Shown here: positions 28,784 through 32,980 of the stretch, piece by piece | Numbering within the stretch: the first letter of the stretch is position 1 | Layout of the letters: each line of letters starts with the position of its first letter | Origin: a virus | Strand: one strand, 5' to 3' | IMG/VR virus record: IMGVR_UViG_3300044825_000554 | Location: 1-32,980 of that record | Length of the DNA: 32,980 nucleotides | Made by a program: the position numbers and the translations under genes | Notes under the pieces: generated by a model | Database searches by the model: none | The model's input: only the letters and a program-made list of their open reading frames with translations | Told to the model about the DNA's origin: nothing

Positions 28784-29464
28784 TTAGGTTTTTTGTAAAA
28801 TCCACACCGACCAATAAGAGTAAGCGTTAAAAAAGTTCTCGTCTTTGTCCTCTGTTGGCTTGTATTTAGAGTTAACAAATTTGTTATACGCTTCTACATC
28901 AAACATAAACCCATGCTTATGGAATAGTCGATACCAATAATTAATCGGCTGAATGTTTACATGGGTTGGGTCACCCATATACATTTCTTTGGTTTCCCCG
29001 TCTTTTACGGCATCTAAGCAAATAAACGCCCGACCTGATTTCTTTAAAATTCTTGAAAATTCATGCAATATGGCATCCATTTGGTCTTGCGGGATATGCT
29101 CTAACACCTGTGCTGTATGCACCAAATCCACGCTTTCAGTCAAAGCTGGAGTTTCTGCGATTGAGCCACAAACAAGCTCGTTAGCGTAATACCCAAAATG
29201 GGTACGGCCTAGCTTAATCATGGATTCGTTTAAATCTACCCCTAAAACTCTCATATTTAGCTTATGGAAGCCTTTTAGGATTGAGCCACACGCACATCCA
29301 GCATCCACCACAAAGCCGTCACGGGGCGTTTTACAGGCTTCTATGACCATTTTGGCGTATTCCTCTTGCCAATAGCCATGCCCCAAGTAATCAAGACCAG
29401 CATCTTTATGCTCGTCATAGTAGTCTTGGTTGTATTCGGTGACTTTAAGATTGGTCAGCAACAC
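28784..29464 (-). CDS. Class I SAM-dependent methyltransferase
   Basis: Motif I is FVVDAGCACGSILKGF (about 51-66), the acidic end of strand 2 is in VLGVDLNESM, and the motif IV region is SVDLVHTAQVLEHIP, as in class I small-molecule or glycan methyltransferases. The C-terminal part (about 165-226) is aromatic and probably binds the substrate. It has no DNA-methyltransferase catalytic motif such as DPPY or PC, so the target is probably a small molecule, sugar or protein. The start is a GTG overlapping the VRR-NUC gene by 20 bases. A later in-frame start is possible. It may be associated with the glycosyltransferase, which is not shown. Confidence 0.8.
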   Translation of the reverse strand: MLLTNLKVTEYNQDYYDEHKDAGLDYLGHGYWQEEYAKMVIEACKTPRDGFVVDAGCACGSILKGFHKLNMRVLGVDLNESMIKLGRTHFGYYANELVCGSIAETPALTESVDLVHTAQVLEHIPQDQMDAILHEFSRILKKSGRAFICLDAVKDGETKEMYMGDPTHVNIQPINYWYRLFHKHGFMFDVEAYNKFVNSKYKPTEDKDENFFNAYSYWSVWILQKT

Positions 29465-29738
29465 GGATTAATCCAATCGCTCGTAGTGCAGCTTCAGGTG
29501 AATCTACCCGACTGAGTGGCCCACCCTTCCAGTTGGCAATAAACTTAAGCTGGTCTTTGGTGAACTTAGCCTTTGCGTCACGCTTGACTTCCATCAAGAT
29601 TGTTTCACCGTTGTAACACACCATCAGGTCAGGTATTCCACGCCCAACCATCGACAAAATGTACACATCTGCCCCAGCTTTTCTAAGGGTTTCTACTATT
29701 TCTGTTTGGTTTACATCAACCTTACGGGCGTATGGCAT
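29445..29738 (-). CDS. VRR-NUC domain nuclease
   Basis: This 97-residue protein fits the VRR-NUC form of the PD-(D/E)XK fold. VNQTEIVETLRKAGADV opens it, GRGIPDLMV carries the acidic D37, and ILMEVKRDAKAKFTKDQ carries E50-x-K52 and the following Gln. The C-terminus GGPLSRVDSPEAALRAI completes the fold. Phage members act as structure-specific nucleases or Holliday-junction resolvases that clear branched DNA before packaging. It is the first gene of the long leftward block and could help process concatemers for the terminase. That link is inference. Confidence 0.85.
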   Translation of the reverse strand: MPYARKVDVNQTEIVETLRKAGADVYILSMVGRGIPDLMVCYNGETILMEVKRDAKAKFTKDQLKFIANWKGGPLSRVDSPEAALRAIGLIRVADQS

Positions 29739-31890: not shown

Positions 31891-32026
31891 CCTCAAGTTC
31901 TTGGGCCAAGTCGGTCACATCACAGCTAATTAAGTAAGCCTGTGTATGGTCTTGCTTTAGCTTGGCATTGTGTAGCTTTTTAATTGTGCGGTTTAGGTCT
32001 AAAAATACTTCGGCAAATTCTCTCAT
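31859..32026 (-). CDS. Small helical protein (55 aa)
   Basis: This short frame starts with an ATGA overlap with the preceding 109-residue gene and ends inside the next nuclease gene by about 30 bases. Both junctions fit the coupling pattern here. The product is an amphipathic, acidic helical peptide (FAEVFLDLNRTIKKLHNAKL and then DVTDLAQELEDVLQ). It has no membrane segment or cysteine pair. I do not recognise a family. It could be a regulatory or accessory protein of the nuclease it precedes. Confidence 0.5.
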   Translation of the reverse strand: MREFAEVFLDLNRTIKKLHNAKLKQDHTQAYLISCDVTDLAQELEDVLQNDANIQ

Positions 32027-32352
32027 TTGGTTAGTCTTTCTATTTGTCTGTCGTTAGCTTGTTGGGTACGCCATGCTTCAAACCTCATCTTGGCAGCTTC
32101 TAATTGCCAGCGTAGGGCTTCTTTTTGCTCTACCGCTACGCCTATGGCTTTGCAAAGGTCTTGGTAGTCTTGGCTACGGTAGGCTTCTCGTTCCTGTGCG
32201 CCTAGCGATTGTTCTTCAGTTTGCGACATCTTAATGGCTTTAAGACTATGCCTAAAGTTTTCAAGCTGGGCCAATTCACCTGACGCTTTAGCGTATTGCG
32301 GTGCGGTTTTAAATATAAAGTCTATTGCTTCGTGTGGGTCATAATCTTTCAT
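32023..32352 (-). CDS. Conserved helical phage protein (109 aa)
   Basis: The N-terminus (DYDPHEAIDFIFKTAPQYAK) is followed by a long helical region (ELAQLENFRHSLKAIKMSQ, EREAYRSQDYQDLCKAIGVA and then RWQLEAAKMRFEAWR) that I know from hypothetical proteins in many tailed phages. It has coiled-coil character and no cysteine motif or membrane segment. The start overlaps the methyltransferase end by about 14 bases. The function is unknown. An association with the upstream DNA methyltransferase is possible from gene order only. Confidence 0.65.
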   Translation of the reverse strand: MKDYDPHEAIDFIFKTAPQYAKASGELAQLENFRHSLKAIKMSQTEEQSLGAQEREAYRSQDYQDLCKAIGVAVEQKEALRWQLEAAKMRFEAWRTQQANDRQIERLTK

Positions 32353-32980
32353 CTAATCTTCCTTTAAGGATGTTCCAAGCGGTTGCTGCACACAATGGCA
32401 CTTGTCCATTTCCAATGGATTTAAGTCTGTCCACCCGATTGGCCATCCCATTAACCACTCTGTCCAATTTGGGTTCAACTTCCCACCATCCAACATTTTT
32501 TTCTTCTTTTCTTCGAACAAAACTGCGTCTGAAAGTTTTGCTCCATATGTCATATTTGCTTTGTTTAGTTTCCTCAGAATGTAACCACCCCCTAATGTTT
32601 TCTCTACCCTGCTTGATTGTTCTCCGCCCTCTACACAACCTACTGTCGGTGTTGGCCACATTTCGATTCTTTTCTTCAATGCTTTGCGACTGTTGCTGCC
32701 ACCATCTATTCCCGTTGTGTTCGGTGTGTGAAAAAAGTCTAAATTGTTTGGTACTTTTTCCGACAATCCATATTCGTTCTCTAAGGTGGTTTGCTCCCAC
32801 ATCGGCTGCTGAAATAACTCCCCATTCCGCATCGTACCCCAGCGTGGAAAGGTCTCCGAGTACTGTTCCCAATCCCCTAGAAGTGAGCATTGGACTGTTT
32901 TCCACAAAGACATATTGGGGTCGTACCTCGCTAATAATCCTTGCCATCTCTTTCCACATTCCTGACCGTTCTCCGTCAAT
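32339..32980 (-). CDS. C-terminal part of cytosine-5 DNA methyltransferase, cut by the window edge
   Basis: The frame is open to the last base of the window and reads DGERSGMWKEMARIISEVRP, then YVFVENSPML (the ENV-like motif IV of cytosine-5 methyltransferases), LGYDAEWGVISAADVGA, RERIWIVGK (motif VIII region) and finally RVDRLKSIGNGQVPLCAATA (motifs IX and X). Thus the N-terminal half with the PC nucleophile lies to the right of the window. The enzyme would methylate cytosine in DNA, perhaps against restriction. The ATG at 32959 is internal and not the true start. The region between motif VIII and IX also carries an alternative long frame, described separately. The target sequence is unknown. 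Confidence 0.85.
   Translation of the reverse strand: MDGERSGMWKEMARIISEVRPQYVFVENSPMLTSRGLGTVLGDLSTLGYDAEWGVISAADVGANHLRERIWIVGKSTKQFRLFSHTEHNGNRWWQQQSQSIEEKNRNVANTDSRLCRGRRTIKQGRENIRGWLHSEETKQSKYDIWSKTFRRSFVRRKEEKNVGWWEVEPKLDRVVNGMANRVDRLKSIGNGQVPLCAATAWNILKGRLDERL
32353..32980 (-). CDS. Overlapping-frame ORF inside the methyltransferase gene, recognised phage pattern
   Basis: A second minus-strand frame stays open for at least 208 codons to the window edge, shifted by one base against the methyltransferase. Its product reads LLARYDPNMSLWKTVQCSLL, FPRWGTMRNGELF, WPTPTVG and LNPNWTEWLMGWPIGWTDL. This pattern is known to me from many phage proteins of the methyltransferase kind. The same bases encode VANTDS and RVDRLKSIGNGQVP in the other frame, so each conserved pattern is a frame-shifted reading of the other. 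The first codon shown (TTG) is not a proven start. Whether it is translated is open. It may be an artefact of conservation in the first frame. Confidence 0.45.
   Translation of the reverse strand, partial: LTENGQECGKRWQGLLARYDPNMSLWKTVQCSLLGDWEQYSETFPRWGTMRNGELFQQPMWEQTTLENEYGLSEKVPNNLDFFHTPNTTGIDGGSNSRKALKKRIEMWPTPTVGCVEGGEQSSRVEKTLGGGYILRKLNKANMTYGAKLSDAVLFEEKKKKMLDGGKLNPNWTEWLMGWPIGWTDLNPLEMDKCHCVQQPLGTSLKED

Follow-up and report, generated by a model that had tools for sequence, protein, structure and literature searches.

A viral DNA of 32,980 nucleotides (IMG/VR record IMGVR_UViG_3300044825_000554, analysed over its whole length and called the window here) ends in a cytosine-5 methyltransferase gene whose DNA can be read in two same-strand frames, and the question raised by this locus is whether the second reading is also a gene. 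A first-pass annotation had left two possibilities: the gene might be conserved as a dual-coding one, its second product possibly acting as a partner or regulator of the enzyme, or the conservation of the second frame might be merely apparent and due to that of the first; the former was to be abandoned if the openness and conservation of the second frame followed fully from the codons of the first, if no start signal lay upstream, and if stop codons were frequent in close relatives. The analysis reported here indicated that the locus very probably encodes a two-chain C5-cytosine methyltransferase in two overlapping frames, the expression, assembly, activity and specificity of which are inferred.

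Both frames lie on the minus strand (Table 1). F1, the methyltransferase frame, is open for 213 codons up to the window edge, and F2, placed one base after it, is open for 208 codons, as had been described. The peptides named by the first-pass annotation as paired readings of one DNA were found at matching coordinates, GWTDLNPLEMDK (32436-32401) with RVDRLKSIGNGQ (32437-32402), and WPTPTV (32658-32641) with VANTDS (32659-32642). Its recognition of both frames as recurrent in phage protein sets also held, since F1 matched phrog_363 and F2 matched phrog_1008 (1e-27; the F2 of locus L002 gave 5e-28 and Alma gp82 gave 3e-68), phrog_26627 (9e-13) and others. The families phrog_26627, phrog_35493 and phrog_27243, all of unknown function and all matching F2, probably represent either pieces of this second frame or annotations nested within it. 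No PHROG match was found for the ORF that follows.

Table 1. Coordinates of the two reading frames, their conserved segments and the adjoining ORF
Feature	Position	Strand	Basis or remark
F1 (alpha), C5-cytosine methyltransferase chain	window 32339..32980	-	PF00145 6.9e-16; phrog_363 2e-36
F2 (beta), +1 frame, stop-free throughout	window 32353..32979	-	open frame; stop depletion
F2 SLWKTVQCSLL...FPRWGTMRNG, conserved, over F1 motifs VI-VIII	window 32821..32910	-	alignment conservation; phrog_1008
F1 RERIWIV, end of motif VIII region; predicted fold stops shortly after	window 32762..32782	-
F2 module 1, FHTPNTTGIDGGSNSRKALKKRIEM	window 32659..32733	-	module family in 58 loci
F2 module 2, WPTPTVGCVEGGEQ..., proposed target-recognition module	window 32482..32658	-
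F2 KLNPNWTEWLMGWPIGWTDL, motif IX-like, strongest dual constraint	window 32422..32481	-	divergence 0.023
F1 RVDRLKSIGNGQVP, motif X, partial overlap with F2 motif IX	window 32396..32437	-
Next ORF	window 32023..32352	-	ATG directly abuts F2 stop (TAGATG); 14-base overlap with F1 end
F1 full gene	L170 1736-2638		301 codons, TTG start
F2 full ORF	L170 1740-2624		295 codons, ATG 4 bases past F1 start

The window edge removes the 5′ part of F1 and an F2-specific N-terminal part, and the complete gene is contained in contig L170, which is DNA-identical to the window gene. The 206-aa frame described in the first-pass annotation does belong to a methyltransferase, but the ATG at 32959 is not its start, since the window cuts the gene and the start is given by L170. 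The Asn2 codon of F1 was AAT in all 173 loci with start context (117 distinct upstream sequences), and for this reason the ATG of F2 is invariant; the start codon of F1 itself varied among ATG, GTG and TTG. The two starts overlap in the sequence NTGAATG, the F2 ATG being placed immediately after an in-frame TGA, and Shine-Dalgarno-like motifs were commonly found 4-5 nt upstream of the F1 start and 8-9 nt upstream of the F2 start. That one site initiates both chains was inferred from this layout and not demonstrated; an invariant ATG behind a ribosome-binding site nevertheless removes the objection that no start signal lies upstream.

F1 carries motifs I-VIII and X, and motif IX is absent; in the window, the motifs up to VIII are followed by a non-conserved linker and then by motif X. 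The catalytic domain of C5-cytosine DNA methyltransferases was recognized in F1 (PF00145), in which GGFPCQD and VENSP vary little or not at all. The structural model of F1 was confident at residues 17-171 and 280-300, residues 172-279 forming an unstructured linker (pLDDT 30-38), and Foldseek matched this model only to the catalytic portions of M.HaeIII and M.HhaI, over about 170-175 columns. Among the bacterial relatives scanned, which were chosen by F1, the motif IX pattern was found in none of the F1 frames, and most of those with a full-length gene had it in the +1 frame. F1 does not qualify as a single-chain enzyme, which would carry motif IX and the recognition domain in one chain. In three loci (L270, L271 and L298), which weigh against the proposed two-chain enzyme, one stop interrupts F1 near or after motif VIII and motif X is still found downstream in the F1 frame; these are either decaying genes or a split version.

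As far as sequence patterns can tell, the motif IX lacking in F1 is present in F2. The modules of the variable region of F2 open with a P-T-P signature and recur across loci, and the first ~95 residues, to which no role was assigned, are under less constraint. No family was found for F2 in Pfam or NCBIfam, and a PDB sequence search returned only a chance match to zyg-11. The AlphaFold model of F2 alone was poor (pLDDT 54, pTM 0.23), and a recognition-domain fold could not be shown because of this. Profile comparison of F2 with the single chain of Gordonia phage Stultus aligned the IX segments weakly (probability 5%, E 0.007), and in the alignment with split-type relatives the match fell on another segment, not IX. 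The putative kinship of F2 to single-chain relatives rests on PHROG membership and on the IX segment, pairwise scores not being strong.

C-terminal halves of the F2 type exist as separate genes and in frame within a single-chain methyltransferase. In Alma gp83/gp82, GaugeLDP, Iracema64, EdgarPoe and L304, motifs I-VIII are found in one frame and the modules, motif IX and motif X in the next, separate F2-type genes being seen in mycobacteriophages and an Arthrobacter phage. In Stultus gp4, all parts are in frame in one chain, which matches both phrog_363 and phrog_1008. This joined order, existing in the split relatives and in the Stultus fusion, is the one that a ribosomal frameshift past motif VIII would generate, with motifs I-VIII of F1 followed by the modules and motif IX of F2. 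Such a frameshift is unlikely in the present gene, however, since the N-terminal half of F2, needless for a shift past motif VIII, is open as well, the F2 ATG is kept directly behind the in-frame TGA, and the fused product would be without motif X, which lies in F1.

As physical assembly was not shown and the fold of F2 is unresolved, F2 could also be real and yet stand outside the enzyme, as an overprinted regulator, inhibitor or anti-restriction factor. This is quite improbable, considering that F1 has neither a folded recognition domain nor the motif-IX pattern, that the pattern is provided by F2, and that the F2-type half is fused in frame to the catalytic half in Stultus and carries motif X in the split phages. 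Most likely, F1 and F2 fit together into one DNA-methylating enzyme in which F2 carries the target-recognition part, and the partner suggested by the first-pass annotation can be named, by inference, as a target-recognition and motif-IX subunit.

The evidence that F2 is maintained as a coding frame came from relatives gathered in three viral scans, one genome scan and annotated phages. Of 236 sequences, 235 had the F2 profile match placed at +1 to that of F1, and the single exception was without both. In 20,000 synonymous-codon shuffles of the window gene, a mean of 6.3 stops appeared in the +1 frame over 208 codons, and no shuffle was stop-free. The key sample comprised 52 non-redundant genes (14,859 codons) picked by F1 alone, in which 63 stops were observed in the +1 frame versus 323±12 after synonymous shuffling, and the +2 frame was not depleted (955 stops versus 852 in shuffles). 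Similarly, the interior of 80 prophage or bacterial loci had 6 stops in the +1 frame versus 208.6±8.9. In 79 aligned genes, no such stop occurred within alignment columns 36-494, and those present were almost confined to the TGA before the F2 ATG and to the F2 end. Other long ORFs of the same contigs, used as controls, presented a stop ratio of 0.96, and flanking genes were undepleted. The second frame is stop-free beyond chance, one of the checks that had been proposed, and neither the codons of F1, the shuffles of which predict many more stops, nor frequent stops in relatives can be invoked against it.

Synonymous-site constraint, which had also been proposed as a check, was measured as the divergence of F1 4-fold sites over 242 close pairs. 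The tail past the F2 end gave a divergence of 0.349, the catalytic N-terminal part 0.227 and 0.198, the variable region 0.158, and the stretch where F2 reads LNPxWVEWLMGWPxGW only 0.023, so that F1 sites are frozen under F2 motif IX and relaxed past the F2 end. In the motif IX overlap, the same codon was used at 0.88 versus 0.36 expected, and single codons were fixed (e.g., GGG 79/79, GTG 63/63 and GAC 76/76). The codon-position pattern indicated that F1 is dominant in the N-terminal part and in the tail, with F2 prevailing over the variable region and the IX segment. In fact, among pairs chosen by F1 similarity, mean identity in the variable region was 0.87 for F2 and 0.55 for F1, F2 exceeding F1 in 1031 of 1036 pairs. 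Constraint alternates along the gene, and each frame is therefore a passenger through the important part of the other. Both frames are under selection.

The comparison of +1 and +2 identity between distant pairs was dropped as a test, being uninformative because conserved DNA lifts both frames. A by-product of the conserved methyltransferase frame, to which strong F1 conservation lifting identity in all frames and a +2 identity of distant pairs also above its shuffles would lend support, is excluded with near certainty as the cause of F2 conservation, and codon constraint as the whole cause with it, by the restriction of stop depletion to the +1 frame and its absence from the controls, by synonymous sites that relax past the F2 end and by the greater conservation of F2 in the variable region. 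The first-pass alternative of a frame that merely looks conserved is thereby rejected, and the dual-coding one strongly supported.

Among described enzymes, the two-chain M.EcoHK31I (YGGCCR) is the closest, and its small chain is encoded in another frame within the large-chain gene. According to PMC3404938, which cites Lee, Kam and Shaw 1995 for this layout, the large chain contains motifs I-VIII, X and the predicted recognition domain, and the small chain contains motif IX only; the same source describes M.AquI as split differently, with motifs I-VIII in one chain and the later motifs in a second. The division of motifs I-VIII and X from motif IX is seen in F1 and F2, which, judging by this pattern, would work like M.EcoHK31I, with neither sequence kinship nor descent shown. 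Unlike in M.EcoHK31I, F2 covers the whole gene from its start near that of F1, the arrangement is widespread in phages, and the variable-region modules are conserved in F2 (without binding data), not in the large chain where the recognition domain of M.EcoHK31I is predicted. M.AquI and the mycobacteriophage gp83/gp82 type, the latter belonging to the same PHROG families as F1 and F2, likewise keep catalytic motifs I-VIII apart from the later ones, but motif X is in their second chain, their first chain ends past motif VIII, and their annotated frames overlap briefly. M.HhaI and M.HaeIII have the catalytic fold of F1 but consist of one polypeptide with motif IX and the recognition domain in frame, neither of which is shown by F1. 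Moreover, Paenibacillus phage Diva gp50, nested in the methyltransferase gp49, is a member of the F2 family (phrog_1008 1e-73); it differs from F2 by an internal start, was deposited as 'g49 internal gene' without a function, and is not discussed in the accessible part of a paper on 48 P. larvae phages. No phage dual-coding methyltransferase was found in the literature searched, from which most subscription journals were left out.

In the proposed mechanism, alpha (F1) would supply catalytic motifs I-VIII and X, with an unstructured linker in place of the DNA-recognition domain, and beta (F2) would supply exchangeable P-T-P target-recognition modules and motif IX. With the beta ATG overlapping the alpha start behind one ribosome-binding site, both chains would be produced from one mRNA and should assemble into one enzyme marking phage DNA. 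The translation of F2, the assembly, the requirement of two chains for activity and the protection from host restriction are inferred. It is also conceivable, at somewhat less than an even chance, that F2 is a swappable specificity cassette, in which phages exchange P-T-P modules and the F1 linker passively reads through; if so, one annotated methyltransferase gene would give rise to enzymes with many, and sometimes multiple, target sites.

Genes filed merely as 'DNA cytosine methyltransferase' in phages, prophages and RefSeq genomes conceal a second gene of full length, in which the specificity of the enzyme probably resides. An inactive enzyme would be expected when the annotated frame is cloned in recoded form, and predictions of specificity from that frame alone would read the wrong one. 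The same-strand overlap is unusually long, with selection shifting between the frames over its length, and makes overprinting and split-enzyme evolution testable.

The dual-frame arrangement is present in hundreds of phages and prophages, and the second frame is almost never annotated. At least 575 F2-encoding stretches were found in one viral scan, and in a sample of 399 genomes from one bacterial phylum, 16 had an F1 relative. A plasmid search gave two matches only, both annotated as methyltransferase, and RefSeq examples filed as DNA cytosine methyltransferase include E. coli and Leptospira loci.

Several loci depart from the common layout. In Mycobacterium phage Llama (gp74 and gp75; L239 1243-2002), a one-base frame change inside F1 splits the methyltransferase, and the F2 reading shifts along with it, both frames being maintained on each side of the break. 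Rhodococcus phage ReT1v-2 (L325 550-1464) has a mixed arrangement, with P-T-P modules in the +1 frame and motifs IX and X in the F1 frame. In Arthrobacter phage EdgarPoe gp80 (L326 1162-2439), a single chain bears an extended array of P-T-P modules, which suggests several recognition modules per enzyme. Elsewhere in the window, a second, unrelated methyltransferase-like ORF (28784-29464, phrog_27380) and an endonuclease-like ORF (29445-29738, phrog_93) were observed.
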